From Blastococcus sp. CT_GayMR19 (GTDB lineage: Bacteria; Actinomycetota; Actinomycetes; Mycobacteriales; Geodermatophilaceae): a stretch of DNA of 64,000 bases. The notes under the pieces are model-generated. The model was not told where the DNA came from. It saw only the letters and a program-made list of their open reading frames with translations, and did no database searches. The first letter of the stretch is position 1, and every line of letters begins with the position of its first letter. Below, piece by piece: positions 7,294 to 35,961 of this stretch. The stretch spans positions 1 through 64,000 of the forward strand of contig NZ_SPQL01000015.1 of the NCBI RefSeq assembly GCF_004570385.1, given 5' to 3'. The position numbers and the translations under genes are program-made.

Positions 7294-7375
7294 GCGAGGC
7301 ATGGCGCACCGAGGAATGCGGGCGGCGGAGGCGCGTCCCGGTTCACCCGTCGTCGGGGCCGCCGTACCGAGAGAA

Positions 7376-7394
7376 CTGAACGGAACGGGTTCAG
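7376..7394. promoter_or_regulatory. Small inverted repeat between livF and the binding protein
   Basis: CTGAAC and GTTCAG flank a 7-base loop (GGAACGG). It could be a weak mRNA hairpin separating livF from the more highly needed binding protein, or an operator. There is no T-run, so a classical terminator is unlikely. Confidence 0.25.
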
Positions 7395-7475
7395 CAGGGT
7401 CCGGGCGATCGCGCCAGGACCGGATGGCACGGGAGCGGGTACACCGCCCCCCTTCACAGAATCGGCGGTAGTCGC

Positions 7476-8753: not shown

Positions 8754-8848
8754 CCGGAGCGCGGTGGGCGGACAGGGACATGCCTGTCCGCTCACCGCGC
8801 CCCGCGCCGCCGGGGAAGCCGGGGGCATGCCACGACAGCAGGAGAACC

Positions 8849-9475: not shown

Positions 9476-11838
9476 GCCAGACGAGGTACGACATCGAGGA
9501 CGCGGCCGGGGTGTCCGGGGAACCGCCGTTCCGGCTGGAAGAGGCGACGATCGACGACCTCCACCGAGCGATCCGCTCCGGTGCGACCACCTGCGTGGAG
9601 GTTGTGCAGCAGTACATCGACCGGGCCCGCGCCTACAACGGGGTCGCCAGCGCCCTGATGACCGAGGACGGCAACCCCGTCCCGCCGGTCAGCGGTGCGG
9701 TCCGCGCCCTCGATGCCCTCACCTTCCCCACCGAGACCGTCGCCGCCTCCACCCTGCTGCCGGACCTGGACAAGTACGAGGGGCCGCCCCTCGAGTTCGG
9801 CCGCATGGAGCCGACGGCCTCCGACCCGGAGGTGTACCAGCAGTTCGGGATGCTGGTCGGCCTGCCCGACGCCGGCCAGCTGAACGCCCTGGCCACGCTG
9901 AACATCCGTGGCGAGCGGTCGGTCACCTGCAAGGGCGACTTCGACCGCCACCCCGATGACGGGCCCCTTCCGGTCGGGGCGCCTCCGGTCTGCGAGATGT
10001 TCCGGCACCAGCCCGACGCCCTGGAGCGCGCCGCGGAGCTCGATGCGACCTACGGCCGCAACCCGGACCTCGAGGCGATGCCCATGTACGGCGTCGTCTT
10101 CTCCTTCAAGGACCCGTTCGACACCACGGACATGCGCTCCACCGGTGGCGCCGACGCCCGCTTCGACATCGACTTCCCCGCCCGCGACCACGTGCTGGTG
10201 GAGCAGCTGCGGGCCAAGGGCGCGATCATCTACGCCAAGGCGATCAACACCGAGTACAACGGCCGCATCGGCGACCCCGGTGGCCGGCACGCACCGGAGA
10301 AGGTCCTCCCCTCCACGCTCGGGTACCAGCGCAGCACCTGGGCCGGCAATCCGGCCAACGTCTACGACACCACCCGGTCGGCCTCCCTGGGGTCCAGCTC
10401 GGGGTCCGGTGTGTCGGTGAGCGCCAACCTCGTCATGGTCAGCCTCGGCGAGGAGACGCGGGCGTCGTGTCGGGGACCGGCCAACCACAACGCCGTCGCG
10501 CTCGTCCTCCCGCACAAGGCGATGCTGGGCTTCGACGGTGGCGCCATCGGCGCGGACATCCACGTCGACCGCAGTGGGGTCCTCGCCCGAACCCTGGAGG
10601 ACGCCACCAAGGTCCTCGACGCCCTCCGGGACCCGACCGAGGAGTACTACGACCCGCGCGACCCGTTCACGACGGTGCCGCGCTCCTCGGTGCTGCCGTC
10701 CTACGCCGTGCACGCTCGGGGATCGGGGGAGCCCGGAGCGTTGAGCGGCATGCGGATCGGCATCGTGCGGGAGTCGATGCCCGTCCGCCCGGGCGCCTTC
10801 GCTTCCTCGGTGATCCCGCCGGCAGCCGCGGCCGAGATCAAGGCCGTGCTGGGGGACCGGCTCGGGGCGACTCTGGTGGAGTCCGGTGACCCGCTCTGGG
10901 CACGCGATCCCGATCTCGAGGTCATGCAACCCGACTTCCGGCGCGCGCTCGCCCGGTTGGTGCCCGTCTTCATGCCCGACCTGCTCTTCCGGCTGGGCCG
11001 GGACGGCACGCCGGTGTTCCCGGACTTCGCCGCCGCCGTCGAACCGACGGAGTTCATGCCGGGCGAGATCTTCGGTACCGGCACGATGGCGCCGATCGAC
11101 TACTTCGTGGAGCTGGCCGAGGGCCGGATCGAGCCGCCGGCCAACCTCGACATCGCCACCGTCCAGGACCAGCAGCTGTCGATGACGTTCCGGTACCACA
11201 TCCCGCAGTACCTCAGGGCGCGTGCGGCGGACTGGGCCGAACTCGGCTTCACCGAGACGCTGGTGGACTTCCCCTCCCTCAACGCCCGGTCCAAGTTCTG
11301 GGGCGACGACCAGCGCGCCTGGTGGCGGAACTGGGAGGAGGTGCGCGACATGCGCAACCCCCTCTCCGGGCGCCAGGGCGTGCACGAGCGGTTGCTGCTA
11401 CGGGAACTGCTCCGCCGCGTGGACATGATGGTCCTGCTCGAGAACCACCTCGACGTCCTCGTCCGCCTGCACACCCCCCTCCCGCCCGCCCGGATCGGGG
11501 ACCCGGCAGAGTTCAACAACCCGCACAACCTGCCGCCGGAGTCGATGTACGGGCCCAACGCCGGATTGACGGAGGTTCTCGTCCCGGCCGGTTACGTGCG
11601 CACGGCCTACGATCCCGTCTTCGTGCTCAGCGACGACCGCATGCGGTACGTGCACAGCGAGTCCGACCGGGCCACCGAACTCCCCGAACCAGGGCTGCCC
11701 TTCTCCCTCGTCTTCCGTGCGGAGCCGGGCAAGGAGGACGTGCTGCTCCGGGTGGCGTCGAGTTACGAGGCGGCCTCCCGGCGTCGCGTCCCGCCGCCGG
11801 CGTTCGGGCCCCTCCCCGTGCACGGGGGCACGGTGTGA
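9472..11838 (+). CDS. Large amidase-signature family protein
   Basis: A 788-residue protein with the amidase-signature core in the middle: Lys213 in SFKDPFDT, the serine-rich loop GSSSGSG (cis-Ser near 310) and Ser332 in RASCRGPA aligning with the nucleophile of the TGGSIR motif. All three triad positions therefore seem present, although the motif wording differs strongly from typical amidases. It is far longer than the usual 450-510 residues: about 130 extra residues precede the Lys and about 250 extra follow the core. It overlaps both neighbours by four bases, so it is made together with the two subunits of the molybdenum hydroxylase. It probably hydrolyses an amide that is the substrate or product of that hydroxylase (inference). 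Confidence 0.8.
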   Translation: MSQTRYDIEDAAGVSGEPPFRLEEATIDDLHRAIRSGATTCVEVVQQYIDRARAYNGVASALMTEDGNPVPPVSGAVRALDALTFPTETVAASTLLPDLDKYEGPPLEFGRMEPTASDPEVYQQFGMLVGLPDAGQLNALATLNIRGERSVTCKGDFDRHPDDGPLPVGAPPVCEMFRHQPDALERAAELDATYGRNPDLEAMPMYGVVFSFKDPFDTTDMRSTGGADARFDIDFPARDHVLVEQLRAKGAIIYAKAINTEYNGRIGDPGGRHAPEKVLPSTLGYQRSTWAGNPANVYDTTRSASLGSSSGSGVSVSANLVMVSLGEETRASCRGPANHNAVALVLPHKAMLGFDGGAIGADIHVDRSGVLARTLEDATKVLDALRDPTEEYYDPRDPFTTVPRSSVLPSYAVHARGSGEPGALSGMRIGIVRESMPVRPGAFASSVIPPAAAAEIKAVLGDRLGATLVESGDPLWARDPDLEVMQPDFRRALARLVPVFMPDLLFRLGRDGTPVFPDFAAAVEPTEFMPGEIFGTGTMAPIDYFVELAEGRIEPPANLDIATVQDQQLSMTFRYHIPQYLRARAADWAELGFTETLVDFPSLNARSKFWGDDQRAWWRNWEEVRDMRNPLSGRQGVHERLLLRELLRRVDMMVLLENHLDVLVRLHTPLPPARIGDPAEFNNPHNLPPESMYGPNAGLTEVLVPAGYVRTAYDPVFVLSDDRMRYVHSESDRATELPEPGLPFSLVFRAEPGKEDVLLRVASSYEAASRRRVPPPAFGPLPVHGGTV

Positions 11839-13976
11839 GCACCCCCCTGCCGCCGCAGGCCGTGCCCTTCGGGTACAGCCTGCAGCGCAACCCGCTGCTC
11901 TCCCACTGGGTCGGGTTTCCTCACGGGGGGCAGGTGGAGGTCCGGGTCGGCAAGGTCGAGCTGGGGCAGGGCATCGTCACCGCGCTCGGCCAGATCGCGG
12001 CCGAGGAGCTCGACGTGGCCTGGTCGCGCGTCCAGGTGGTGCCGGCCGCCACCGACCGCAGCCCGGACGAGGGGCTCACCGCCGGGAGCCGGTCGATCAT
12101 GGACTCGGGCAGCGCCCTGCGCGCCGTCTGCGCAGAGGTCCGCCGCCTGCTGCTGAGCCTCGCGTCCGCCCGCTCAGGAGCCCCCGTGGAGGGCCTCGAG
12201 GTCCACGACGGCGAGGTGCGCGACGCGGCCGGCACCGTGCAGGGCAGCTACTGGACCCTGCTCCGGCGCGAGCAGCTGGACGTGCCCGTCACCGGCGAGG
12301 CGGCGGCCAAGGCACCGGCCCGGCACGGGATCGTGGGACACAGCGTCCGCAGGCGTGATCTCGACCGGAAGCTCACCGGCGCACCCTCCTTCGTCCACGA
12401 CCTCCGTCTACCCGGCCAGTTGTACGGCCGGGTGGTGCGGCCGCCCTCCCCTGGCGCCTGCCTGCTCGACGTGGACGACTCCGCCGCGCGAGCGCTCCCG
12501 TCGGTGTGCGGCGTGGTCCGCCAGGGCAGCTTCCTGGGCGTCGTGGCCGACCGCGAGGAGGAGGCGATCCGGGCCACCGAGCTGCTGCGGGCCGGCGCCC
12601 GGTGGCAGGAGCAGGAGACCCTGCCCGTGGACCCGGACTGGCTCGACAGCCTCCCCGGCCACCCGGCGGAGGTCAGCCAGGTCGAGCGACGGGAGGATCC
12701 GGACGCCGCGGCCCGCGTCGTCGACGTGCACCGGGCCTCCTACGGCCGGGCCTACCTCGCGCACGGCTCCCTCGGGCCCGGCGCCGCCGTCGCCCGATGG
12801 GACGGGGACGACGTCTCGGTGTGGACGCACACCCAGGGCATCTTCCCCCTACGGCGCGCCCTCGCGGCCGCCCTGGACATGGATCCCGACCAGTTCACCG
12901 TGCAGCACGTCGAGGGAGCCGGCTGCTACGGCCACAACAGCGCGGACGACGTGGCGCTCGACGCCGTGCTCCTCGCCCGCGCCATGCCCGGACGCCCGGT
13001 CCAGGTCGTCTGGTCACGCGAGGACGAGTTCGCCTGGGAGCCCTTCAGCCCGGCCATGGTGGCGGAGGTGTCCGCGGGGATCGACGAGGCCGGCGATCTG
13101 GTCACCTGGGAGCAGCACGCCTGGAGCAACGGCCACGACAGCCGTCCCGGCTTCTTCGGGCAACCCGGCCTGCTGGGCTACTGGCACGCCGCCGACGTAC
13201 CGGCACCTGCTGCGTCCGACCCCTCCCTGGCCATCGGCGGGGGGACAGGCCGCAACGCCGTCCCCCCGTACGTCGTCGCGGACCTGGACGTCCAGGCCCA
13301 CCGCCTCCTGGTGGCGCCGCTGCGCACCTCGGCCCTGCGTGGGCTGGGGGCCACTGTCAACGTGTTCGCGATCGAGTCGGCCATGGACGAGCTCGCCGAG
13401 CGCGCCGGCGCCGATCCTGTCGAGTACCGCATGCGGCACCTTCCCGACGAGCGTGCCCGAACCGTGCTCCGCACCGCTGCCGAGCAGGCCGGCTGGTACG
13501 ACCGGCCGACCGAGGACTCCGTCGGGTGGGGTGTCGGTTACTCGCGCTACAAGGACGTCTGCGGGTACTGCGCGGTGGTCGCCCGAGTGGAGGCGGTGTC
13601 GGAGGTCCGGGTGACCGACCTGTGGGTGACCGTCGACGCAGGGCAGGTCATCAACCCCGACGGCCTGGTCAACCAGATCGAGGGCGGCGCGATCCAGGCC
13701 GCGAGCTGGAGCCTCCTGGAGGAGGTCACCTTCGACGCGCGGACCGTCACCAGCCGGGACTGGGAGGGCTATCCCATCCTCCGGTTCGCCGACGTGCCGC
13801 AGGTCCATGTCACGGTGCTCCCCCGGCCCGACGATCCGCCGCTCGGCGTCGGCGAGGTGGCCGGTGGTCCGGTCGCCGCCGCCCTGGCGAATGGGCTGGC
13901 CGACGCCATCGGCGTGCGGGTCCGCCGGTTGCCGCTGACTCCCGAACGCATCGCTGCGGTCATCGAGGCGGGTTGA
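11835..13976 (+). CDS. Molybdopterin-binding large subunit of a molybdenum hydroxylase (IorB/xanthine dehydrogenase family)
   Basis: Catalytic subunit of 713 residues. It opens with the cofactor-binding region VEVRVGKVELGQGIVTAL, has GAGCYGHNSADDVALDA and APLRTSALRGLGA in the middle, and near the C-terminus GVGEVAGGP, which contains the Glu that acts as base in this family. The order of segments is that of IorB-type enzymes, which hydroxylate the carbon next to nitrogen in N-heterocycles or oxidise aldehydes using water. The GTG start overlaps the amidase stop. Its electron partner is the two-cluster subunit at 8849-9475. No XdhC-type maturation gene is in view. Confidence 0.88.
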   Translation: MSTPLPPQAVPFGYSLQRNPLLSHWVGFPHGGQVEVRVGKVELGQGIVTALGQIAAEELDVAWSRVQVVPAATDRSPDEGLTAGSRSIMDSGSALRAVCAEVRRLLLSLASARSGAPVEGLEVHDGEVRDAAGTVQGSYWTLLRREQLDVPVTGEAAAKAPARHGIVGHSVRRRDLDRKLTGAPSFVHDLRLPGQLYGRVVRPPSPGACLLDVDDSAARALPSVCGVVRQGSFLGVVADREEEAIRATELLRAGARWQEQETLPVDPDWLDSLPGHPAEVSQVERREDPDAAARVVDVHRASYGRAYLAHGSLGPGAAVARWDGDDVSVWTHTQGIFPLRRALAAALDMDPDQFTVQHVEGAGCYGHNSADDVALDAVLLARAMPGRPVQVVWSREDEFAWEPFSPAMVAEVSAGIDEAGDLVTWEQHAWSNGHDSRPGFFGQPGLLGYWHAADVPAPAASDPSLAIGGGTGRNAVPPYVVADLDVQAHRLLVAPLRTSALRGLGATVNVFAIESAMDELAERAGADPVEYRMRHLPDERARTVLRTAAEQAGWYDRPTEDSVGWGVGYSRYKDVCGYCAVVARVEAVSEVRVTDLWVTVDAGQVINPDGLVNQIEGGAIQAASWSLLEEVTFDARTVTSRDWEGYPILRFADVPQVHVTVLPRPDDPPLGVGEVAGGPVAAALANGLADAIGVRVRRLPLTPERIAAVIEAG

Positions 13977-22782: not shown

Positions 22783-24030
22783 GTGCTGCCCGGCTCCTCC
22801 GCCGGGGTCGCCGCCCGGCCGCTGCCCGGCTGGGTCCGGGAGACGGCCGCCGGTGTCGACCTCGAGGCCCTGTGCGAGCGCGTCGTCGTCCGGGACATCG
22901 CCGTCGCTTTCCCCGACCTCGCGGACGACCACGGGTTCGTCGACCACCTCCGGGCGAGCGTCCGGGAGAACCTGTCCCTGCTGCAGCAGGTGCTCACCGG
23001 CCGGCTCCCCCTCGCGGCGGTCCGGCTCGAGCAGCCCCTGGCGTTCGCCCGTGTCCAGGCCGAGCTGCGCATCCCGCAGACGGCGCTGCAGCGCTCCTAC
23101 CGGGTCGGCTTCACGGTCATGTGGGAGGCATGGGCCGAGCAGCTGCAGGCCGCGGCCGAGGCCTCGGACGTGCCGCGCGCGGAGGCGGTCCGGGGCCTCG
23201 CCGAGCTGACCGCGGCCATCTTCACCTACCAGGACCACGTCGCCTCCCAGGTCGCGGAGAGCTACGCCCGGGTCGACGACGCCCTGGGGCGGTCGCGGGC
23301 ATCGGTCCGGCAGGGCCTGGTGCGCGAGATCCTCCGGGGGGACCGGCCGTCGCTGGCCCCCTCGGACCTGATCACGCTGGACCACGACCTCGGCGGCCAC
23401 CACGTCGCGGTGGTGCTGCCGGCGGTGCCCGAGGGAGCCGCCGGCCAGCTCGTCATCGGGCTGCGTGCCGGGACCGGCGTGCGGCAGACCCTGGTCCACC
23501 CGCTCGACCTCGCCCGGACGGCGATCTGGCTCACCACCCCGGGCGGCTGGACCCCGGACATGCTGCGGCGGCTGACCGGCGCACTCGCCGGGACCGGTGT
23601 CGAGGCGTCGGTCAGCGAGCCGCTGTGCGGGCTGGAGGGCTTCCGGACGGCCGTCGAGCAGGCGCAGGACGTGGAGCGGGTGCGGCGGGCGTGGGGCAGG
23701 ACCCAGTCGCCCCGGGTCCTGGCCCACGGGGACGTGGCGCTGGAGATCCTGCTGCTGCGCGACCCCGACCACGCGGGCCGGTTCGTGCGCGCGGAGCTCG
23801 GCCCGCTCGCCGAGGACACCCCCGAGGCCGCGCGGCTGCGCGAGACCCTGGAGGCGTCGTTCCGGCTGGGCAGCCACGTCTCGGCCGCCGAGCACCTGCA
23901 GCTGCACGAGCACACCGTGCGCAACCGCCTGCACCGCGCCGAGGAGCACCTCGGGCGCCCGCTGGCCGAGCGACGGACCGAGCTCCAGGTGGCGCTGCGC
24001 CTGCAGCGCCTGCTCGCCAGCGGGGACTGA
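22783..24030 (+). CDS. PucR family transcriptional regulator
   Basis: A 415-residue regulator. The N-terminal and middle parts have the helical and GGDEF-like region of the CdaR/PucR family. The C-terminus (from about residue 365) has the PucR helix-turn-helix: GSHVSAAEHLQLHEHTVRNRLHRAEEHLGRPL. PucR proteins control purine, allantoin and other nitrogen-compound catabolism as activators. It is divergent from the FAD monooxygenase operon and convergent with the hydroxyisobutyrate-dehydrogenase-like gene, so it probably controls one of these units. The GTG start follows an in-frame TAG by one codon, which rules out a longer form. Confidence 0.85.
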   Translation: MLPGSSAGVAARPLPGWVRETAAGVDLEALCERVVVRDIAVAFPDLADDHGFVDHLRASVRENLSLLQQVLTGRLPLAAVRLEQPLAFARVQAELRIPQTALQRSYRVGFTVMWEAWAEQLQAAAEASDVPRAEAVRGLAELTAAIFTYQDHVASQVAESYARVDDALGRSRASVRQGLVREILRGDRPSLAPSDLITLDHDLGGHHVAVVLPAVPEGAAGQLVIGLRAGTGVRQTLVHPLDLARTAIWLTTPGGWTPDMLRRLTGALAGTGVEASVSEPLCGLEGFRTAVEQAQDVERVRRAWGRTQSPRVLAHGDVALEILLLRDPDHAGRFVRAELGPLAEDTPEAARLRETLEASFRLGSHVSAAEHLQLHEHTVRNRLHRAEEHLGRPLAERRTELQVALRLQRLLASGD

Positions 24031-24050: not shown

Positions 24051-24935
24051 TCACTGCCCGGCGAGCCGCTGGAGGACGCCGAACACGCAGGCGGTGTCCT
24101 CCTGGAGCCGGTCCTGGGCCACCGCTGCCTGGTACAGGACGGCCGTCGCCGAGAAGAGGGGCGTGGGGCTCGCGACGCTGCCCGCGAAGGCGGCGATGAG
24201 GGCGTTGTCCTTCTGCATGGTCGCGACGGTCGCGGTCGCCGGGTCGTACCGGCCGGCCGCCATGAGCGGCCCGCGGACCTGCAGCATGCGGGAGCCCCCG
24301 GCGCCGTCACCGACCGCGGCCAGCACGTCCTGCAGGTCCAGCCCGGCGCGCTGGGCGAGGAGGAGGGCCTCTGCCGCGGCCGCGTTGTGCACCGCGACGA
24401 GCAGGTTGGCGACCAGTTTCATCGCGGTGCCCCGGCCGAACGGGCCCAGGTCGTACTGGGCGCGGGTGAAGGCCGCCAGGACCGGCAGGGCGCGCTCCTT
24501 GGCCTCGTCCTCGCCGCTCAGGTACGCCACGAGGTCGCCGTCCCGGGCCTGCTGGCCGGTGCCGCTCATCGGGCAGTCCAGCAGCGTGGCCCCGAAGGCC
24601 TGCGCGCGGTCGTGCCCGTCCTCCTTGGTGTCCGGACCGAGGGTGCTCGTCTCGAGGACGACCAGGCCGGGGCGGGCGCCGGCGGCGAGCCCGTCCGGCC
24701 CGTCCAGCACCGCGGCCAGGGCCGCGGCGCTGGGCAGCGAGGTGACGACGACGTCGGCGCCGCGCGCGACCTCGGCCGGGTTCGCGCAGACGGTCCCGCC
24801 GCGCGCCGCGTGGTCGGCCCGGCGGCCGGCGTCGGGGTCGAAGCCGAGGACGGGGAAGCCGGCGTCGAGCAGGTGCCCGCTCATCGCCGACCCCATGACG
24901 CCGAGGCCGAGGAAGCCGACCGGTCCCCGGCTCAC
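24051..24935 (-). CDS. NAD(P)-dependent beta-hydroxyacid dehydrogenase (3-hydroxyisobutyrate dehydrogenase family)
   Basis: A 294-residue protein with the Rossmann motif VGFLGLGVMGSAMSGHLL, the substrate region DCPMSGTGQQARDGDL (family DAPVSGG) and the helix GRGTAMKLVANLLVAVHN with the catalytic Lys. The GTG overlaps the stop of the upstream hydrolase (GTGA). It should oxidise a short beta-hydroxy acid to the semialdehyde with NAD(P)+. It is the last gene of the minus operon that starts with the luciferase-like monooxygenase, and methylmalonate-semialdehyde dehydrogenase downstream in the window could accept such a product (inference). Confidence 0.87.
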   Translation of the reverse strand: MSRGPVGFLGLGVMGSAMSGHLLDAGFPVLGFDPDAGRRADHAARGGTVCANPAEVARGADVVVTSLPSAAALAAVLDGPDGLAAGARPGLVVLETSTLGPDTKEDGHDRAQAFGATLLDCPMSGTGQQARDGDLVAYLSGEDEAKERALPVLAAFTRAQYDLGPFGRGTAMKLVANLLVAVHNAAAAEALLLAQRAGLDLQDVLAAVGDGAGGSRMLQVRGPLMAAGRYDPATATVATMQKDNALIAAFAGSVASPTPLFSATAVLYQAAVAQDRLQEDTACVFGVLQRLAGQ

Positions 24936-25717
24936 CGGAGGCCCTCGGCCCGGGTCTCGCGCAGGAAGCCGACGAGGGCGTCGCGGAACTGCTCCGGCTG
25001 CTCGAGGACGCCGGCGTGCCGGGCCGGGGAGAGCCACACCACGCGGGCGTCGGGCAGCCGCTCCCCGAGGTCCCGCGCCGCCGCGACGAAGGGCGGCGCG
25101 TCGTCCTCGCCGCACACGACGAGGGTGGGCGCCGTGATGCGGTCCAGGACGCCGGTGACGTCGGCCTGCTCGAGGGCCCGGCAGGCGAGCGCGTAACCGC
25201 GGGCGTCCCCGCCCAGGAAGGCGCGGCGGGCGGACTCCACGACCGGGCCGCCCTCGGCCAGCCGGTCGGCGGTGAACCACAGGGCGAGCGTCGGGTCGAG
25301 GAACGGCTCGACGCCCTCGACGGGGGCGCGGGCCGCGCGGTCGCGCCACATCTCCCGCATCGGCTCCGGGTACACGACCACGGCGTCGACCACGACCAGC
25401 CGCCGCACGAGGTCGGGGGCGTCGGCCGCCAGCCGCTGCGCCACCAGCCCGCCGAGGGAGACGCCGACGACGTCGACCTGCTGGTACCCCGCGTCGGCCA
25501 GCAGCTGCCGCGCCTGGTCGGCGAGGTCCTCGATCGTGTACGGCTCCTCGGGCACGGGCGTGCGCCCGTGCCCCGGGAAGTCGTAGGTCAGCACCTCGAA
25601 GCCGTCGAGCGCGGGCAGGACGCCGTCCCAGAAGGAGCGGTCCACACCCAGGGGGTGCAGCAGGAGGACCGGCGTCCCCTCCCCGGTGCGGTGCAGCACC
25701 GGCGCGGCCAGGCTCAC
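24932..25717 (-). CDS. Alpha/beta hydrolase (3-oxoadipate enol-lactonase-like)
   Basis: A 261-residue hydrolase: oxyanion region LLLHPLGVDRSFWDGVLPAL, nucleophile elbow VVGVSLGGLVAQ, catalytic Asp in CGEDD and His in PARHAGVLEQP. The size and the HPLGVDRSFWDG opening resemble enol-lactonase (PcaD)-type enzymes. The GTG overlaps the stop of the carboxymuconolactone-decarboxylase-like gene. In protocatechuate operons PcaC and PcaD are paired, but here the rest of that pathway is missing, so a related lactone or carbon-nitrogen hydrolysis is equally likely. Confidence 0.87.
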   Translation of the reverse strand: MSLAAPVLHRTGEGTPVLLLHPLGVDRSFWDGVLPALDGFEVLTYDFPGHGRTPVPEEPYTIEDLADQARQLLADAGYQQVDVVGVSLGGLVAQRLAADAPDLVRRLVVVDAVVVYPEPMREMWRDRAARAPVEGVEPFLDPTLALWFTADRLAEGGPVVESARRAFLGGDARGYALACRALEQADVTGVLDRITAPTLVVCGEDDAPPFVAAARDLGERLPDARVVWLSPARHAGVLEQPEQFRDALVGFLRETRAEGLR

Positions 25718-26304
25718 CGCGCGTCCCCCGCGCCGGCCCCGCGGACGTCGGGCAGGAACGGTCCCCCGGGCGCCGGCGTCCGCGCCGCCTGCATGACGAC
25801 CGCCAGCGTCGTGTAGTAGCCGGACGTCGCCACCACCTCGACCACCCCGGCCTCGCCCAGCTCGGCGAGAACCCGGGCGTAGACGTCGTCGGAGACGGCG
25901 CGGGTGCGGAACAGCTCGTCGAGCAGCTCCCAGACCGCCTCCGCCGCCGCGTCCATGCCCTCCGGGCGGCGGTCCTCGGCGATGGCGTCCGCGATCGCCG
26001 GGTCGAGGCCCGCCTCGAGGGCGAGCGGGTGGTGGAACGTCCACTCGAACTGCTGGTCCCACCACCGGGCCACGTAGAGGATCGTCATCTCGAACAGCCG
26101 ACGGTCCAGGGGGCTCTCGAAGCGCAGGTACTCCCCGACCTTCTGCAGCCGGGTCATCAGCTCGGGACTGCGCAGCAGGGGGGCGAAGGGCCCGATCACC
26201 GCGCCGCGGGGACCCGAGCTGATCTCGGCGGCGGCGGCCCGCTGCTCCGCCGTCATCTGCTCCTCGGCCAGCGGGGGCAGACGGTCGGCCGCGACGTCAG
26301 GCAT
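25714..26304 (-). CDS. Carboxymuconolactone decarboxylase family protein
   Basis: A 196-residue helical protein with the CMD fold region FEMTILYVARWWDQQFEWTFHHPLALEAGL. It lacks the CxxC pair of AhpD-type peroxidase members, so it is closer to the decarboxylase-like branch. It begins inside the 3' end of the luciferase-like monooxygenase gene (8-base overlap) and overlaps the next hydrolase gene by four bases, so it is tightly coupled. The function in this operon is not known; a decarboxylation or lactone step after ring opening is possible. Confidence 0.83.
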   Translation of the reverse strand: MPDVAADRLPPLAEEQMTAEQRAAAAEISSGPRGAVIGPFAPLLRSPELMTRLQKVGEYLRFESPLDRRLFEMTILYVARWWDQQFEWTFHHPLALEAGLDPAIADAIAEDRRPEGMDAAAEAVWELLDELFRTRAVSDDVYARVLAELGEAGVVEVVATSGYYTTLAVVMQAARTPAPGGPFLPDVRGAGAGDAR

Positions 26305-27409
26305 TCGCCCGACCGGAGCCGAGCGCGTCGTTCACCTGCGGCATGACCTTGGTGGCCATGAGCTCCATCGAGCGCTTCGCCAGGTCGGGGTCGATCCAGT
26401 CCAGGCCGGCGTAGACCAGCTCGCCGAAGTCGCCGGTCTGCTCGCGGAAGGCCAGGATCTGCTCCGCCACCGAGTCGGGCGTCCCGCAGATCACCAGGTC
26501 GTCCAGCACGCCGTCGAGGGTGATCTCCTCGTCCGGCTGCTCCCGGGAGGTCTTGAACAGGCCGAGCCGGCCCAGCCGGCGCATCTTGCCGAGCATCTTC
26601 CCGTAGTAGTAGCGGTAGGGGCTGTTCGCGTCGCCCCTCCCGTAGGCCTCGGCGACGCCGGCGTCGTCGGCCACGAACACCGTCCGCGCGATGCGCCAGT
26701 CCTCGGCCGCGGCGGTCTGCCCGGCGGATTCCTTGCCCTCGACGTAGTTCGGCCAGTGCGTGGCGACCCACTGCGGCAGGAGGAAGTTCGCCGAGAGGGG
26801 GTGGAAGTCGCGGGCGCCCATGGCGACGACGCCCTTGGAGAAGGGCGCCACCACGGTGCCGACGATCTCCGGCCGGGGGGTCTGCAGCGGCTTCCCGACG
26901 ATCCCGACGCCGACCTCGTCGTCGAACGTGGTGGCGGTGGTGACCCTGAACCGATTGCCCGGCAGGTCGATGTCGTAGGGCGGGTCGAGCTCCCAGAGGC
27001 GGGTGATCACGTCGATCGCCTCGGCGAAGATCTGGTTGCGGTCCTCGTCGAGGAGGCCGAGGAGCTCGGCGTCCGAGGGAAGGGCGCCGGGGCTGACGCC
27101 GAGGATGAACCGGCCGCCGGAGAGGTGGTCGAACATCGCGCTGTTGACGGCCACGAGCGCCGGGTGCATGTGGGAGAGGTTCGTCGTCCCCGTGCCCAGG
27201 CGGATCTGGGTGGTGTCGTGGATCAGCGTGGCCAGGAAGACCAGGCTGTTGGTGATGTTCTCGTGCCGGTCGGTGAGGTGCTCGCCGATGAAGGCGTCGT
27301 GGAACCCCAGCCGGTCGGCGAGGATGACCGCCTCCCGGTCCTCGCGCAGGGTGTCGGCCCAGGTCCGCCCCTGCGGGTGCATCGGCATGGCGAAGTAGCC
27401 CAGTCTCAC
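26297..27409 (-). CDS. LLM class flavin-dependent monooxygenase
   Basis: Bacterial-luciferase-like TIM-barrel protein of 370 residues: opening MRLGYFAMPMHPQGR, DAFIGEHLTDRHENI, IRLGTGTTNLSHMHPALVA and SGGRFILGVSPGALPSD, all family landmarks. Such enzymes use reduced FMN supplied by a separate reductase. A flavin reductase domain is encoded by the divergent gene at 27731, strongly suggesting a two-component system. Known systems of this kind open pyrimidine (RutA/RutF) and pyridine rings or oxidise terpenes and sulfonates. GTG start with GAGGAG seven bases upstream. First gene of a four-gene minus operon. Confidence 0.9.
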   Translation of the reverse strand: MRLGYFAMPMHPQGRTWADTLREDREAVILADRLGFHDAFIGEHLTDRHENITNSLVFLATLIHDTTQIRLGTGTTNLSHMHPALVAVNSAMFDHLSGGRFILGVSPGALPSDAELLGLLDEDRNQIFAEAIDVITRLWELDPPYDIDLPGNRFRVTTATTFDDEVGVGIVGKPLQTPRPEIVGTVVAPFSKGVVAMGARDFHPLSANFLLPQWVATHWPNYVEGKESAGQTAAAEDWRIARTVFVADDAGVAEAYGRGDANSPYRYYYGKMLGKMRRLGRLGLFKTSREQPDEEITLDGVLDDLVICGTPDSVAEQILAFREQTGDFGELVYAGLDWIDPDLAKRSMELMATKVMPQVNDALGSGRANA

Positions 27410-27498
27410 GACGATCTCCTCGGAGGTCGGCAGGTGGTCCCTGTCACTGCTCCCGGTCAGTCAAGAGCCGCGACGCCGCGCGGGCAGTGTCGGCGGCT

Positions 27499-27509
27499 GT
27501 CAACTTGAC
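27499..27509. promoter_or_regulatory. GTCAA-C-TTGAC inverted repeat in the LLM/flavin-reductase divergent region
   Basis: A perfect 5+1+5 palindrome about 90 bases from the LLM start and 220 from the flavin reductase start. The 321-base gap 27410-27730 holds no gene I can support. The repeat is a candidate operator for the GntR half of the fusion protein or for PucR; no matched -10 box was found beside it. Confidence 0.3.
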
Positions 27510-27730
27510 CGGCGCCCGATGACGCAGGCCGTGAGTCGGCCCCGGTGGGCAGCGGTCGGCTGACGGCCCCCGGCATCGCCACGGCTCCGAGGTGACGCCC
27601 ACCGCCATCCCCTGGGCGCCGGGCCACAGGTGTACTCGGCATTCGCCCGCGTCCGCCCCGTGCGCCGCGGACCGGCTCGTCCCCTGATGGACCACGTCCT
27701 GCTGGACACGGCGCGGAAGGAGCGGTGCTC

Positions 27731-28879
27731 GTGACGACACCGGAGACGGCGGGGACCCCGGAGGTCGACTCCGCGACGTTCCGCCACGTCGTGGGTCATC
27801 TCCCCAGCGGGGTCACGCTCGTGACCACCCACGGGCCCGAGGGCGACTTCGGCATGACGGCGAGCTCGGTGACCTCGCTGTCGGTCGACCCGCCGATGAT
27901 GCTGGCCTGCCTCAACCGCTCGTCGTCGACGTGCACCGCGGTCTCGCGGTCGGGCGCCTACGTCGTGAACGTCCTGGGCCAGGGCCACGGGCACCTCGCC
28001 TCGCAGTTCGCCACGCAGGGCGCCGACAAGTTCTCCGGCCTCCGGCTGACCCGGGGGGTGCGGGGCGCGCCGGTCCTCGCCGACGCGCTGGCGCGCATCG
28101 AGTGCGAGGTGGTGGAGGAGGTGAGCGCCGCGACGCACACGATCTTCCTCGGCCGGGTGGTGCGGGCCGAGGCCGAGGAGGGCAGCCCGCTCACGTACTT
28201 CCGCGGCGGCTTCGGCCGCTTCGAGTTCGACCGCGACGACGAGGTCTACCTGCACGCCCGGCAACGCGTGCTCGAGCGCATGTACGCCGCCGACGCGGTG
28301 CTGCAGCTCGACGACCTCGCCTTCCAGCTCGGGGTGGACAAGGCGGCGGCGTTCTACGCGCTCACCCGGCTCACCGCCGACGGCCTGGTGCGCCGCGACC
28401 CCAACCGGGGCTACGTGGTCGTCCCCTTCGACGCCCGCACCTCCGATGCGACGTTCGACGCGCGGGCCGCGATCGAGCTGGGGGTCATCGACATGGTCGT
28501 CGGGCGGGTGCCGGCCGACGAGCTGACCGAGCTGCGCAGCCGGTTCGAGGCCATGGCCGCCCTCCTCGTGGGCGAGCGCTTCGTCGACTTCGACCGCTAC
28601 CTGGACGCCAACTACGCCTTCCACGAGGGGCTGGTCTCGCTGGCCCACAGCGCGCCGCTCACGACCGCGTTCGCCCAGCTGCACATCAAGAGCGTCATGA
28701 CCCGCAGCTTCGGCGTCACGCCGGTCACCTCGCAGAGCTTCGTGGAGGCGCAGCGCGGCATCACCGAGGGCGTGGAGCGTGGCGACTCCGACGCGGCCCG
28801 CGCCGCGGTGTACCGGTACACGGACCTCGCCAAGCAGCGCGTGCGGCAGATCCTGGACCAGACCGGCGGCCGGCTCTGA
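27731..28879 (+). CDS. Flavin reductase domain fused to a GntR/FCD transcriptional regulator
   Basis: A 382-residue fusion. Residues about 15-165 are a complete FMN-binding flavin reductase domain: LPSGVTLVTT, FGMTASSVTSLSVDPPMMLACLNRSSST, GAYVVNVL and HTIFLGRVVRAE. Residues about 178-236 are a winged helix (LDDLAFQLGVDKAAAFYALTRL, then DGLVRRDPNRGYVV). Residues about 243-375 are an FCD-type ligand domain. In FCD the metal-binding residues appear mostly replaced (Asn-Tyr-Ala-Phe-His keeps one His; the EH and HL positions read Gln and Tyr), so an organic ligand is more likely than metal. GTG 27731 has AAGGAG eight bases upstream and is preferred over GTG 27725. It faces the LLM monooxygenase, its likely electron client. 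It may serve as both reductase and regulator. Confidence 0.88.
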   Translation: MTTPETAGTPEVDSATFRHVVGHLPSGVTLVTTHGPEGDFGMTASSVTSLSVDPPMMLACLNRSSSTCTAVSRSGAYVVNVLGQGHGHLASQFATQGADKFSGLRLTRGVRGAPVLADALARIECEVVEEVSAATHTIFLGRVVRAEAEEGSPLTYFRGGFGRFEFDRDDEVYLHARQRVLERMYAADAVLQLDDLAFQLGVDKAAAFYALTRLTADGLVRRDPNRGYVVVPFDARTSDATFDARAAIELGVIDMVVGRVPADELTELRSRFEAMAALLVGERFVDFDRYLDANYAFHEGLVSLAHSAPLTTAFAQLHIKSVMTRSFGVTPVTSQSFVEAQRGITEGVERGDSDAARAAVYRYTDLAKQRVRQILDQTGGRL

Positions 28880-28890
28880 CGCGGCCGGGC

Positions 28891-29919
28891 TCAGGCCGGC
28901 GGACCGCCGGGGGCCCGGCCGCGCGCCGTCACGGACGCCCGGACGGTGTCGGGGTCGGCTCCCGCGGCGAGCAGGGCCCACAGCAGCAGCCGTGCCTTGC
29001 GCGGGTCGAGCCAGCCGGCCGGCAGCACGCCGCGGGCCAGCAGGTCCTGCTCGGAGCCGATGAAGCCGTAGGTCGCGGTGAGCACCGGCCCCGCGCCCGT
29101 GCGGCTGGCCAGGACGACCGGACAGCGCCGGACCACGTCGCTCACCACCTCGGCCATCGCCGCCGACACGTGACCGGCGCCGAAGCCCGCCAGCACCACG
29201 CCGTCGTAGCCGTCCTCGGCGACCAGGCGGAGCAGGTCGCCGCGGTCGCCGAGATGGGTCTCCAGCAGGGCGACACGGGGAGCGCGGCCGCCGGCGGGCA
29301 GCGGGAGGGCCGGCCAGCACGCCGGCCGGGCGGCGAAGGTCACGGCGCGCTCGTGCACGCGGCCCACCGGCCCGAACGGCCCCGAGGCGAAGGTGTGCAG
29401 GGCGACGGTGTCGGTCTTGCGCACGCGGGCGGCGGCGTGCACCTCGTCGTTGAGGACCACCAGCGCCCCCCGGTCCCGGGCGTCCGCGCTCGCGGCGACG
29501 ACGGTCGCCGCCAGCAGGTTCGCCGGGCCGTCGGCGCCGGCCGCCGTCGGCGCCCGCATGGCGCCGGACACCACCAGGGGCTCGGGCCGGTCCCAGTACA
29601 GGTCGAGCAGGTACGCGGTCTCCTCGATGGTGTCCGTCCCCTGGACCACCACGACCCCGTCGACGCCGCCGTCCACCACCTGGCCGCGGGCCCACTCCCC
29701 CACGGCCACGACGTCGGGCGGGGTGAGCCAGGCGCCGGGCTCGGTCCTGAGCGTGGCGACGGTCAGCTCGGCCACCTCGCCGAGCCCTGGGACGGCCGCG
29801 ACCAGGTCGGCCGCCTGCAGCGTCGGGGTCACGGCGCCCCCGCCGGACGCCGGTGTCATCGTGATCGTGCCGCCGAGCGACGCGACGGCCACCCGTCGTC
29901 CGCGGACCTCTGCTGCCAC
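28891..29919 (-). CDS. Asparaginase family amidohydrolase
   Basis: A 342-residue protein of the L-asparaginase/glutaminase family: first catalytic motif VASLGGTITM with its Thr, second motif VVVQGTDTIEETAYLLDL with the Thr-Asp pair, and the distal KTDTVALHTFASGPFGPVG and LAGFGAGHVSAAM segments. The GTG at 29919 is chosen because it begins directly before the first strand; the longer frame to 29979 adds Arg/Pro-rich sequence and enters the promoter of the divergent gene. No signal peptide, so cytoplasmic. It would release ammonia from an amide. Placed convergent with the flavin reductase gene (12-base gap). Confidence 0.86.
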   Translation of the reverse strand: MAAEVRGRRVAVASLGGTITMTPASGGGAVTPTLQAADLVAAVPGLGEVAELTVATLRTEPGAWLTPPDVVAVGEWARGQVVDGGVDGVVVVQGTDTIEETAYLLDLYWDRPEPLVVSGAMRAPTAAGADGPANLLAATVVAASADARDRGALVVLNDEVHAAARVRKTDTVALHTFASGPFGPVGRVHERAVTFAARPACWPALPLPAGGRAPRVALLETHLGDRGDLLRLVAEDGYDGVVLAGFGAGHVSAAMAEVVSDVVRRCPVVLASRTGAGPVLTATYGFIGSEQDLLARGVLPAGWLDPRKARLLLWALLAAGADPDTVRASVTARGRAPGGPPA

Positions 29920-30008: not shown

Positions 30009-31364
30009 ATGACCGATCTCGACCTGCTGATCGCCGGAGGCACCGTGGTGACCTCGACCGGCCGCCGGCGGCTGCACGTGGGAGTGCGCGACGGCAGCGT
30101 CGCCTACCTCGGCCCGGAGACGCCCGCTGCCGGCCGCACGGTGGACGCCACCGGTCTCTTCGTGCTGCCCGGCGGGGTGGACACCCACGTGCACCTGATG
30201 GACCCCGGCAGCCCGGAACGCGAGGACTTCCCGACCGGCACCTCGGCCGCGGCCGCCTCCGGAGTGACGACGATCGTGGAGCACAGCCACGGCACCCCGG
30301 TCCGGACGGTCGGCGACCTGCGGGACAAGACGGCGTACCTGCGGGAGCGGTCCAACGTGGACTTCGGGCTCGCCGCCCACGCGTGGCCCGGTGCCGCCGA
30401 CGAGGTCGCGGGGCTGTGGGCCGCGGGGGTCACCTTCTTCAAGGTCTTCACCTGCACCACGCACGGCGTGCCCGGACACGACGCCGCGCGCCTCTCCGCG
30501 CACCTGACCGCCTCGGCGCAGGCCGGCGCGGTCAGCTTGCTGCACTGCGAGGACGAGTCGCTCACCGAGGCGGCCGAGACGCTGCTGCGGGCCGAGGGAC
30601 GTACCGACGGCGGCATTCTCCCCGACTGGCGGAGCCGGGACGCCGAGCTCGTGGCGGCCGTCGTCGCCGGCCTGCTGGTGCGGCGGACCGGCGCCCGCGC
30701 GACGGTTGCGCACGTGAGCCATCCGGAGGTCGCCGACTACCTGATGCGCGAGCGGACGCGGGGTGCCGCGCTGAGTGCCGAGGGCTGCCCCCAGTACTTC
30801 CTGCTGCGCGAGGAGGAGGTCCTCGAGCACGGCGCACTCCGCAAGTTCACCCCGCCCGCCCGCGCCCGCACCGACGACGACGAGGCGGAGATGTGGCGGC
30901 TGCTGCGCACCGGGACGCTCACCCACATGTCCAGCGACCACGCGCCGTCGACCCTCGAGCAGAAGCGCGCCGGGGACATCTGGAACGTGCACTTCGGGCT
31001 GCCGGGGCTGGACAGCACGATGGCCCTGCTGCTCGACGCGGTGGCGCGCGGCCACCTCGCCTACGAGGACGTCGTGCGGGTCTACAGCGAGCGCCCGGCA
31101 CAGGTCTACGGCCTGTGGCCGCGCAAGGGCCGCATCGCGGTCGGCGCGGATGCCGACGTCGTGCTGGTCGATCCCGGCGCAGAGCGGACCCTCCGGTCGG
31201 AGGACGTGCTCTCGAAGGCCGGCTGGACGCCGTTCGACGGCCGGACGGTGCGCGGCCGCGTCGTCCTGACCTTCCTCCGGGGGACGCCGGTCGCCGAGGA
31301 GGGCCGCCCGCTGGACGAGCGGACCGGGCGCTTCGTCGCGGGGCGGGGTGCCGCCGTCGGCTGA
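30009..31364 (+). CDS. Cyclic amidohydrolase (dihydropyrimidinase/allantoinase family)
   Basis: A 451-residue metal-dependent amidohydrolase: GGVDTHVHLMDPG metal site, FFKVFTCTT with the Lys that is carbamylated in this family, SLLHCEDES and ATVAHVSHPE metal His, and HMSSDHAP with the metal Asp. Family members open hydantoin, dihydropyrimidine or allantoin rings at a cyclic amide bond. ATG with AGGAGG upstream; a -10-like TACCGT (29965-29970) lies in the 89-base divergent gap. First gene of the plus operon with two dehydrogenases, a crotonase and a GntR regulator. Confidence 0.9.
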   Translation: MTDLDLLIAGGTVVTSTGRRRLHVGVRDGSVAYLGPETPAAGRTVDATGLFVLPGGVDTHVHLMDPGSPEREDFPTGTSAAAASGVTTIVEHSHGTPVRTVGDLRDKTAYLRERSNVDFGLAAHAWPGAADEVAGLWAAGVTFFKVFTCTTHGVPGHDAARLSAHLTASAQAGAVSLLHCEDESLTEAAETLLRAEGRTDGGILPDWRSRDAELVAAVVAGLLVRRTGARATVAHVSHPEVADYLMRERTRGAALSAEGCPQYFLLREEEVLEHGALRKFTPPARARTDDDEAEMWRLLRTGTLTHMSSDHAPSTLEQKRAGDIWNVHFGLPGLDSTMALLLDAVARGHLAYEDVVRVYSERPAQVYGLWPRKGRIAVGADADVVLVDPGAERTLRSEDVLSKAGWTPFDGRTVRGRVVLTFLRGTPVAEEGRPLDERTGRFVAGRGAAVG

Positions 31365-33787: not shown

Positions 33788-35284
33788 ATGCGCACCATCG
33801 AGCACTGGATCGGCGGCAAGTCGACCTCCGGGAGCCCGAGCGGCACCGCACCGGTCTGGGACCCGGCCACCGGCGCCCAGCAGGCCGAGGTGGTCCTGGG
33901 CTCGGCCGCCGACGTGGCCGAGGCGGTCCGGGTGGCCGCCGCCGCCTTCGAGGAGTGGTCCCAGTCATCGCTCTCGCGGCGGGCGAAGGTCCTCTTCGCG
34001 TTCCGCGAGCTGGCCACCGCCCGCGCCGGCGAGCTGGCCGAGCTGGTCAGCTCCGAGCACGGGAAGGTGCTCTCCGACGCCCGCGGCGAGGTCGACCGGG
34101 GCCTGGAGGTGGTGGAGTTCGCGTGCGGCATCCCCCACCTGCTGAAGGGGTCCTTCTCCGACCAGGCGTCCACCGACGTCGACGTCTTCTCGTTCCGGTC
34201 GCCGCTGGGCGTCGTCGCCGGGATCACGCCGTTCAACTTCCCGGTGATGGTCCCGATGTGGATGCACCCGGTGGCGATCGCGTGCGGCAACACGTTCATC
34301 CTCAAGCCGAGCGAGCGCGACCCGTCCCCCTCCCAGCTCGTCGCCGAGCTGTGGCAGGAGGCCGGGCTGCCGGACGGCGTCTTCAACGTCGTCCAGGGCG
34401 GCAAGGAGGTGGTCGACGCGCTGCTGGACGACCCCGGTGTCGCGGCCGTCTCCTTCGTGGGCTCGACGCCCATCGCGCGCTACGTGCACGAGCGGGGCAC
34501 GGCGACCGGCAAGCGGGTCCAGGCCCTCGGTGGCGCCAAGAACCACGCCGTCGTGCTGCCCGACGCCGACGTCGACTACGCGTCCGACCACCTGGTGGCC
34601 GCGGCCTTCGGGTCCGCCGGCGAGCGCTGCATGGCGATCTCGGCCGCGGTGACCGTCGGGGGCGCCGGCGACGCGCTGGTCGAGGCCGTGTCCGCGAAGG
34701 CGTCCGCGATGAAGGTCGGCCCCGGCCGGGACCCGTCGAGCGAGATGGGTCCGATCGTGACCCGCGAGGCCCGCGACCGGATCGCCGGCTACATCGGCTC
34801 GGGCGCAGAGCAGGGTGCACGGGTGGCGGTGGACGGGCGAGGCCTCGTCGTGCCCGGGCACGAGGACGGGTTCTTCATCGGCCCGTCGGTGCTCGATCAC
34901 GTGACGCCGTCGATGGACGCCTACCGCGACGAGATCTTCGGTCCGGTGCTGTCGGTGGTCCGTGCCGACACCGTCGACGAGGCGATCGCGCTGATCAACG
35001 CCAATCCGTACGGCAACGGCACCGCGATCTTCACCTCCAGCGGCGAGGCGGCCCGCCGCTTCAAGCGCGGGGTCACCGTCGGCATGATCGGCGTGAACGT
35101 GCCGATCCCCGTGCCGATGGCCTACTACTCCTTCGGCGGCTGGAAGGACTCGCTGTTCGGTCAGAGCCGCATCCACGGCCCGGACGGGGTGGACTTCTAC
35201 ACCCGCACCAAGGTGGTCACGGAGCGCTGGCCGACGGTGTCGGCCCACAGCGCCGCCAGCTACCACTTCCCGACGTCGACGTGA
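33788..35284 (+). CDS. mmsA: CoA-acylating methylmalonate-semialdehyde dehydrogenase
   Basis: A 498-residue aldehyde dehydrogenase of the MmsA subgroup: opening RTIEHWIGGK, SPLGVVAGITPFNFPVMVPMWM, KPSERDPSPSQL, FVGSTPIARYVHERGTATGKRVQALGGAKNHAVVLPDAD, nucleophile Cys in GSAGERCMAIS and GVNVPIPVPMAYYSFGG. Members turn methylmalonate or malonate semialdehyde plus CoA into propionyl- or acetyl-CoA with CO2 release. Either GTG 33779 or ATG 33788 may start it; the ATG gives the usual N-terminus. Its stop overlaps the GntR start. It is the likely exit of this pathway into central metabolism. Confidence 0.92.
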   Translation: MRTIEHWIGGKSTSGSPSGTAPVWDPATGAQQAEVVLGSAADVAEAVRVAAAAFEEWSQSSLSRRAKVLFAFRELATARAGELAELVSSEHGKVLSDARGEVDRGLEVVEFACGIPHLLKGSFSDQASTDVDVFSFRSPLGVVAGITPFNFPVMVPMWMHPVAIACGNTFILKPSERDPSPSQLVAELWQEAGLPDGVFNVVQGGKEVVDALLDDPGVAAVSFVGSTPIARYVHERGTATGKRVQALGGAKNHAVVLPDADVDYASDHLVAAAFGSAGERCMAISAAVTVGGAGDALVEAVSAKASAMKVGPGRDPSSEMGPIVTREARDRIAGYIGSGAEQGARVAVDGRGLVVPGHEDGFFIGPSVLDHVTPSMDAYRDEIFGPVLSVVRADTVDEAIALINANPYGNGTAIFTSSGEAARRFKRGVTVGMIGVNVPIPVPMAYYSFGGWKDSLFGQSRIHGPDGVDFYTRTKVVTERWPTVSAHSAASYHFPTST

Positions 35285-35961
35285 CCACGGCGTCGGAGTC
35301 GGCGGGCAGCCGGGTCGCCCAGGGGCTGCGTGACCGGTTGCGGACCGGCGCGCTGGCTCCCGGGACGGTGCTGTCGCAGGCGGAGATCGCCGCGGAGTAC
35401 GGCGTCAGCCGCATCCCGGTCCGCGACGCGCTGCACATCCTCTCCACCGAGGGGCTGGTCGACCTGGGCGTGTCCGGCGCGGTGGTGACCGGCCTGTCGA
35501 TCGCCGAGCTCCAGGAGCTCTACGAGCTCCGGGAGGCGGTCGAGCCGGTCGTCACCGCCATCGCGGTGCCCAACGTCGGCCGCGCCGAGACCCGGCAGAT
35601 GGCGACCATCCTCGATCGCATGGAGGCCGAGGGCATCAGTCCCGCGGAGTGGCTGGAGGCCAACGCGACCTTCCACGCCCTGATCTACACCCGGGCGAAC
35701 CGGCCCCGGATGGTCGAGCTGACCGAGCAGCTGCGGCGGCTCACCGACCGGTACGTCTACCTGCACCTCGAGGTCATCGGCGACGTGGAGCACCTGCGCG
35801 AGGAGCACCGCCAGATCCTGGCGGCCGTGCGCGGGGGCGACCCGCGGCTGGTCGCGGAGCTGACCCGCCTCCACCTGGCGACCTCGCACGAGTTCATCCT
35901 GCGATACCTGCTCAGGACGGCCACCGACGGTGCCGTCCCGGCGACCGGCGTGGCGGGCTAG
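35281..35961 (+). CDS. GntR family transcriptional regulator (FCD domain)
   Basis: A 226-residue regulator: N-terminal winged helix LSQAEIAAEYGVSRIPVRDALHILSTEGLVDL and C-terminal FCD domain with metal-site candidates His in NATFHALIY, EEHRQI and TRLHLATSH. Three His are kept while the usual Asp position reads Asn. It overlaps the mmsA stop by four bases, so it is made with the enzymes it probably controls, perhaps at the inverted repeat at 31401-31432. The ligand should be a pathway acid (inference). Confidence 0.9.
   Translation: MTTASESAGSRVAQGLRDRLRTGALAPGTVLSQAEIAAEYGVSRIPVRDALHILSTEGLVDLGVSGAVVTGLSIAELQELYELREAVEPVVTAIAVPNVGRAETRQMATILDRMEAEGISPAEWLEANATFHALIYTRANRPRMVELTEQLRRLTDRYVYLHLEVIGDVEHLREEHRQILAAVRGGDPRLVAELTRLHLATSHEFILRYLLRTATDGAVPATGVAG

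Follow-up and report, generated by a model that had tools for sequence, protein, structure and literature searches.

The gene at positions 27731–28879 (forward strand) of a 64,000-nucleotide stretch of DNA from Blastococcus sp. CT_GayMR19 (contig NZ_SPQL01000015.1, positions 1 to 64,000; hereafter, the window) encodes a single polypeptide of 382 residues, in which a flavin reductase domain is followed by the winged helix and FCD domain of a GntR-type transcription regulator. We consider it fairly probable that this protein is a ligand-controlled reductase, with the GntR–FCD module acting as the built-in control domain of an enzyme that would supply reduced flavin to a luciferase-like monooxygenase (LLM), the gene for which is transcribed divergently from that of the fusion. 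This reading draws on four lines of evidence: the conservation of the fusion, its genetic linkage to flavin-dependent oxygenases, the loss from nearly all of the fusions of an arginine that is characteristic of the DNA-reading helix, and the analogy with the C1 reductase component of p-hydroxyphenylacetate 3-hydroxylase (HPAH). The relevant features of the window are collected in Table 1.

Architecture and distribution of the fusion

The fusion occupies one uninterrupted frame, and its Flavin_Reduct, GntR and FCD domains each score above the curated Pfam cut-off, bearing out an earlier interpretation made from the nucleotide sequence by itself (the sequence-only reading), which had described a full reductase domain joined to a complete winged helix and FCD domain in one protein. 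The GTG codon at 27731 is preferred over a longer start at 27725 because an AAGGAG ribosome-binding site lies 8 nucleotides upstream of it. Within the reductase domain, His136 is invariant across 33 aligned fusions. The winged helix scores 28.3 bits against the GntR cut-off of 27, and it is also matched by MarR_2 (25.2 bits) and MarR (22.6 bits), both under their respective cut-offs. No NCBIfam equivalog reaches its cut-off for the fusion, the best being HsaB with 116.6 of 230 bits, and we therefore reject the idea that this is a common annotated family with a known, unrelated role. The three longest-matching plasmid records annotate the gene merely as 'flavin reductase'; moreover, neither a flavin reductase fused to GntR–FCD nor its link to an LLM was found in the open-access PMC literature, subscription papers being mostly outside this search.

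Table 1. Features of the fusion locus and its surroundings (positions are those of the window)
Feature	Positions	Strand	Basis
PucR-type regulator, candidate transcription factor for the cluster	22783..24030	+	PF13556; on 21/32 close-clade loci, window included
3-Hydroxyisobutyrate-dehydrogenase-like protein, same cluster	24051..24935	-	Pfam
Alpha/beta hydrolase, 3-oxoadipate enol-lactonase-like, overlapped by the CMD gene	24932..25717	-	Pfam; NCBIfam PcaD under cut-off
CMD-family protein, overlaps the LLM gene	25714..26304	-	PF02627 E=5.5e-6; kept beside the LLM in relatives
LLM, presumed oxygenase partner	26297..27409	-	Bac_luciferase E=5.1e-38; co-occurrence
LLM–fusion intergenic region; conserved blocks at about 27457-27468, 27483-27499 and 27600-27613	27410..27730	.	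Alignment of divergent regions
AAGGAG ribosome-binding site, 8 nucleotides 5' of GTG 27731	27717..27722	+	Sequence reading
Flavin reductase–GntR winged helix–FCD fusion protein, 382 residues, GTG start	27731..28879	+	Single open reading frame; Pfam; 35 actinobacterial relatives
Flavin_Reduct domain, residues 22-163, His136 within THTIFLG	27794..28219	+	PF01613 E=5.5e-44
GntR-type winged helix, residues 170-230	28238..28420	+	PF00392 E=1.4e-6; AF2 models: helices and two-strand wing
Recognition helix, residues 204-216, KAAAFYALTRLTA, Phe208 at the position of Arg in stand-alone regulators	28340..28378	+	Alignment
FCD domain, residues 242-363, metal positions Asn294/His298/Gln341/Tyr363	28454..28819	+	PF07729 E=5.7e-14; column counts
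Stand-alone GntR–FCD regulator (L074), canonical helix SRIPVRDAL	35281..35961	+	Pfam; alignment

A scan of genome contigs, which covered all phyla and recovers close relatives only, yielded 36 loci: 35 are actinobacterial (L037–L071), with 37–84% identity to the fusion, and one is betaproteobacterial (L072), aligning with part of the C-terminal half only. The joint between the domains is spanned by the alignment in 34 of the 35 actinobacterial loci, with the remaining locus, L065, starting at a contig edge. A sequencing or assembly error that had joined two genes at about 28260, an outcome that the sequence-only reading had named as refuting it, can thus be dismissed as having a negligible chance of being correct, no point in its support having been found. 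A search of the host family (Geodermatophilaceae) located full-length fusions in 9 of 112 genomes, including that of the window, six of them at 74–100% identity and three at 43–46%; it added eight full-length loci, four of which are identical to loci already named, and other families of the phylum contributed four further full-length loci. Nevertheless, the architecture is rare, since matches at E≤1e-45 were present in 5 of 396 genomes drawn evenly from the phylum, the window's own included. Among phages, 11 records match the fusion, none covering more than 80% of the query, and the five matches listed concern the reductase domain alone.

A tree built from 69 reductase domains separates the fusions, as one group, from the stand-alone reductases, with support of 90/88, which is just below the tool's star mark, and with several long branches. 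One reductase devoid of a regulator half (L085) sits inside this group; its genome, G484, also holds a fusion (L126) that groups with it in the tree, and a loss of the regulator half from L085 is possible. The Acrocarpospora pleiomorpha locus L066 matches the fusion throughout, and is split by the gene caller into two overlapping open reading frames (1953–3144); possibly, this is a decaying gene that has been left without its partner, or it is a draft error.

Linkage to flavin-dependent oxygenases

For the analysis of gene neighbourhoods, the loci were split by identity into a close clade (n = 32; the window, L012 and L037–L066) and a distant set (n = 15; L067–L071, L086–L088 and L124–L130). 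An LLM gene is present on 28 of the 32 close-clade loci: in 12 it is divergent from and adjacent to the fusion gene, the arrangement that was correctly described for the window in the sequence-only reading, whereas in the others it has the same direction as the fusion, from which it is separated by two genes in 2 loci and by three to nine in 14. Three of the four close-clade loci that have no local LLM gene possess one elsewhere in the genome. Within the host family, the LLM (E≤1e-100) occurs in exactly those 6 of the 112 genomes that carry a close-clade fusion (Fisher p=4e-10, uncorrected for kinship), and the three genomes with a distant fusion alone are without it. In the Nocardioidaceae loci L057 and L059, genes for the LLM, the CMD protein, the hydrolase and then the fusion follow one another in the same direction, the last two overlapping by 4 bp. 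The best sequence match to the LLM in the PDB is 3,6-diketocamphane 1,6-monooxygenase (4uwm, E=2.7e-22). Since the fusion is genetically tied to the LLM in this way, it is likely that the reductase half, very probably the flavin supplier of a two-component monooxygenase, feeds the LLM, and to this extent the earlier proposal of one protein that both feeds the monooxygenase and controls its gene has gained ground.

That the architecture always neighbours an LLM, a point which the sequence-only reading proposed to check, holds for 28 of the 32 close-clade loci but not for the distant ones. Near 11 of these 15 there is instead an HpaB-type oxygenase, assigned by Pfam (L067, L124, L125 and L128), by record annotation (L087 and L088) or by BLAST similarity (L068, L069, L071, L129 and L130). 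An LLM is identified by Pfam in L126, and L067 carries one in addition to its HpaB-type gene. Furthermore, the distant fusions L013 and L014 directly adjoin the gene for RibBA, an enzyme of riboflavin synthesis. This pattern of partners is more in keeping with a flavin supplier than with a regulator dedicated to a single LLM gene. Near L013 and L014 there is also a BTAD-like regulator of large size, together with an HpaB-type gene.

The content of the gene cluster in the window, namely, a diketocamphane-monooxygenase-like LLM, an enol-lactonase-like hydrolase, a CMD protein and dehydrogenases, hints at oxidative ring opening. Also beside the fusion are genes for an asparaginase-like protein (28891–29892, reverse strand) and an allantoinase/hydantoinase-like protein (30009–31364, forward strand), which are retained in several Geodermatophilaceae and absent from the loci of other families that were seen; perhaps, the pair represents a separate, amide-hydrolysing branch. 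More remotely, the region 3784–13976 holds branched-chain-type ABC transporter genes, and then genes resembling those for molybdenum hydroxylase subunits, as judged from the starts of the translations alone.

The regulatory module: DNA binding or enzyme control

In GntR proteins, an arginine of the recognition helix contacts the DNA. To follow this position, 34 stand-alone FCD regulators were taken as controls, 7 from the host (the eighth FCD match there being the fusion itself) and 27, as best matches, from 12 related genomes; these were compared with a first set of 43 fusion rows, and with a widened set of 50, of which 46 are distinct in their last 200 residues. The arginine is present in 33 of the 34 controls and in none of the 43 fusion rows, where it is replaced by phenylalanine (38), glutamine (2), alanine (2) or tyrosine (1); among the 46 distinct fusions there are 34 with phenylalanine and one with arginine. 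Thus, the fusion in the window lacks the SRxxVREAL-type recognition helix of GntR/FCD regulators, having Phe208 for the conserved arginine, and the segment to which this residue belongs (residues 208–213; FYALTR) is invariant in 29 close-clade sequences. Five residues before the arginine position, 30 of the 34 controls have a serine, whereas 40 of the 46 distinct fusions have an aspartate or glutamate. The mean net charge of the winged helix is +0.8 for the controls (range -2 to 5), compared with -3.0 for the fusions (range -7 to 0) and -2 for the protein in the window. In the distant locus L067, the GntR domain fails to reach E=0.01, whereas FCD scores E=9.1e-15. We read these changes as the conversion of a DNA-reading helix into an internal contact, albeit that a new DNA specificity would look alike.

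The same data bear on an alternative in which the fusion, as well as reducing flavin for the LLM, acts through DNA binding as a regulator of both the LLM gene and the fusion gene, the flavin state or a ligand being the signal. Although both the winged helix and the FCD domain are complete according to Pfam, as this would demand, the recognition arginine is missing from 45 of the 46 distinct fusions, the serine that precedes it has given way to an acidic residue in most of them, and the winged helix is acidic overall. The gene order is similarly divided: the fusion is divergent from the LLM gene in 12 of the 32 close-clade loci, and their shared intergenic region contains conserved blocks, but in 16 loci the divergent neighbour of the fusion is a GFO/IDH/MocA-type gene (cluster c5, one member of which is Pfam-identified). 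The motif CGTGA[AG]T, which favours control by the fusion, recurs in the 14 loci where the two genes are separated, upstream of the LLM gene in 6 and of the fusion gene in 8 (about 1 expected in each case); likewise, CAGTG[GT]CG is found upstream of the LLM gene in 9 of the 14 loci with the fusion apart and in 7 of the 9 divergent loci tested (about 0.5 expected in each case), all of these counts being non-independent, as they come from related genomes. Together, the upstream motifs suggest shared control of the oxygenase and reductase genes. The PucR-type regulator, encoded on 21 of the 32 loci, is a better candidate transcription factor than the fusion. A further conserved upstream motif, CAGTCAA, is common to the LLM and fusion genes. 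FadR-type sites (TNGTN(2-3)ACNA) number zero in the 12 LLM–fusion intergenic regions, where about one would be expected by chance, which is a weak test; a scan of the intergenic region for sigma-70 promoters and terminators found none. Taken together, this evidence makes such a dual function quite unlikely, and weakens that part of the sequence-only reading in which the fusion controls the LLM gene through the DNA at 27410–27730. A particular form of such control, with a rebuilt acidic GntR helix still binding DNA, and flavin turnover or the ligand of a metal-free FCD domain setting transcription of the monooxygenase, seems to us just as doubtful, if not more so.

The FCD pocket has also been modified. 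Its four Asp/Asn-His-His-His positions presumably have the role in metal binding that they have in TM0439-type FCD proteins. In the window this site is incomplete: His298 is kept, Gln341 and Tyr363 replace the other two histidines, and Asn294 occupies the aspartate position. The first histidine is kept in all 43 fusion rows, whereas the second and third, present in 34 of 34 controls, are found in only 9 and 7 of these rows, respectively; an asparagine at the aspartate position is seen in 42 of the 43 fusions but also in 10 of the 34 controls. Hence, the earlier impression that the metal residues are mostly lost was accurate, with His298 the only one retained in the window. As the distant fusions L013–L015, L067 and L068 keep both of the later histidines, the ancestral FCD domain was probably of the metal type, and the close clade would have altered its pocket subsequently.

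Structure predictions illuminate both halves of the protein. The AF2 model of the whole chain has a predicted local distance difference test (pLDDT) score of 79.8 and a predicted template-modelling (pTM) score of 0.50, with low confidence in the linker (residues 152–168), and its first Foldseek match is the C1 reductase of HPAH (5zyr, E=5.3e-14, 260 columns). Reductase-only structures, such as 8ct0, score nearly as high. The C-terminal half modelled alone (pLDDT 89.0, pTM 0.79) has, according to this prediction, a genuine FCD regulator fold.

Because C1, the best structural match to the whole model, has a MarR-type autoinhibitor that is relieved by a ligand, we infer that a similar logic of autoinhibition, with FCD as the sensor, may operate in the fusion. 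The N-terminal domain would reduce flavin with NAD(P)H, and the LLM encoded by the neighbouring gene would use the reduced flavin to oxidize a catabolic substrate. The GntR–FCD module would have been acquired whole from a transcription regulator, would have lost the usual DNA-contacting helix and would have become an on-board control domain. The FCD pocket would bind a compound of the pathway, the LLM substrate being the likeliest candidate, and the signal would reach the reductase via the winged helix. By analogy with C1, ligand binding would relieve an inhibition, such that the spending of NADH and the release of reactive free reduced flavin would be restricted to times when there is substrate to oxidize.

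A number of observations weigh against a ligand-controlled reductase. The superposition on 5zyr is poor for the whole chain (TM-scores 0.34/0.42, root-mean-square deviation 11 Å), so that the domain arrangement either differs from that of C1 or is not predicted. The top Foldseek match to the C-terminal half is the DNA-bound repressor VanR/Atu1419 (6za3, E=7.5e-10, TM-scores 0.68/0.62), a resemblance that favours the dual function. Winged helices outside the GntR family bind DNA without the recognition arginine, and one fusion, L086, a distant member on a Dietzia lutea plasmid, keeps it. Moreover, the winged helix is conserved almost like the reductase, the mean pairwise identities in the close clade being 66% for the winged helix, 69% for the reductase and 61% for FCD, as could also be expected of a winged helix that binds DNA. 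As regards the partner, no LLM was found at E≤1e-60 in the genome of L066 despite the presence of a fusion gene, and no oxygenase was seen among those neighbours of L070, L086 and L127 that were scanned, which are a part of the total. Finally, two short plasmid relatives (L087:6001–6780 and L088:5968–6747) keep the winged helix, with no FCD domain found by Pfam or tblastn, and sensing by FCD cannot therefore hold generally.

These short relatives, which are probably of the CphB type, also lend some credence to a purely structural role, in which the winged helix and FCD domain serve to oligomerize the reductase, or anchor it on the oxygenase for flavin handover, with no ligand being sensed. FCD regulators are dimers, two of the three metal histidines have been lost in the close clade, and the one architecture pairs with oxygenases as unlike as the LLM and HpaB types, all of which would suit such a role. 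However, a pure scaffold would hardly keep the FCD bundle at 61% mean identity with an invariant His298, and the parallel case, C1 of HPAH, is ligand-regulated; we consider a structural role rather unlikely, and retain ligand control as the preferred reading, with a small residual chance left for some other mechanism.

Were the GntR–FCD module to control the reductase, a whole regulator module would have been reused for enzyme control, and this reuse would be independent of that of the MarR domain in C1. Such reuse inside an enzyme would be surprising to a specialist, although the principle is already known from C1. The question of how two-component monooxygenases avoid NADH waste and reduced-flavin release could then be put to the test with another regulatory fold, unrelated to the first, and FCD domains that lack the usual metal site would offer a test case for ligand binding. 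It would also be a warning that matches to GntR–FCD domains do not always denote transcription factors. In addition, the pathway compound that is sensed would indicate the substrate of an LLM catabolic cluster that is present in several actinobacterial families.

Relation to known systems

The fusion shares its reductase domain with stand-alone short-chain reductases of the HsaB, FerA, RutF and PheA2 types, which have no regulator half. Conversely, it has the winged helix and FCD fold of FadR/FCD GntR regulators such as VanR/Atu1419 and TM0439, but here the regulatory half is C-terminal to an enzyme, the recognition arginine is missing and, in the close clade, so are two of the three metal histidines.

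A close parallel is C1 of HPAH (AbHpaC, Acinetobacter baumannii; 5zc2/5zyr), which also consists of an N-terminal flavin reductase and a C-terminal winged helix, and which provides the reductase activity of a two-component monooxygenase. The tail of C1 is of the MarR type, in contrast to the GntR–FCD tail of the fusion, and its partner is HpaB-type rather than an LLM. According to a review (PMC10816480), the C-terminal MarR domain of C1 binds 4-hydroxyphenylacetate, whereupon self-inhibition is lifted and flavin reduction increases by a factor of at least 30; substrate-relieved inhibition is thus reported for C1, and would apply to the fusion by analogy.

The CphB/NpdA2-type reductases of 4-chlorophenol and 4-nitrophenol degradation in Arthrobacter and Rhodococcus similarly combine a flavin reductase with a C-terminal helix-turn-helix (HTH), but they are of about 260 residues, no FCD domain is found in them by Pfam or tblastn, and their partner is HpaB-type. 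One paper notes that the reductases of 4-chlorophenol, 4-fluorophenol and 4-nitrophenol monooxygenases have a C-terminal HTH, which the authors expect to serve substrate recognition and localization; it refers to other work for the expression and characterization of cphC-I and cphB from strain A6 (PMC6205950). The reductase of locus L087, on plasmid pACHL02 of strain A6, lies inside the fusion group of our tree and is 60% identical to L015; its winged helix attains 21.7 bits with GntR, which is below the cut-off, and no FCD domain was found in it. From the gene order (an HpaB-type gene, a large regulator and the reductase), we infer that this protein is CphB, and the position of L087 and L088 within the fusion group suggests that FCD was lost from them. 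Overall, a reductase with a regulator-like C-terminal HTH has already been published in the form of the CphB type, and what appears to be new here, as judged from the open-access PMC literature, is the GntR–FCD form and its LLM partner.

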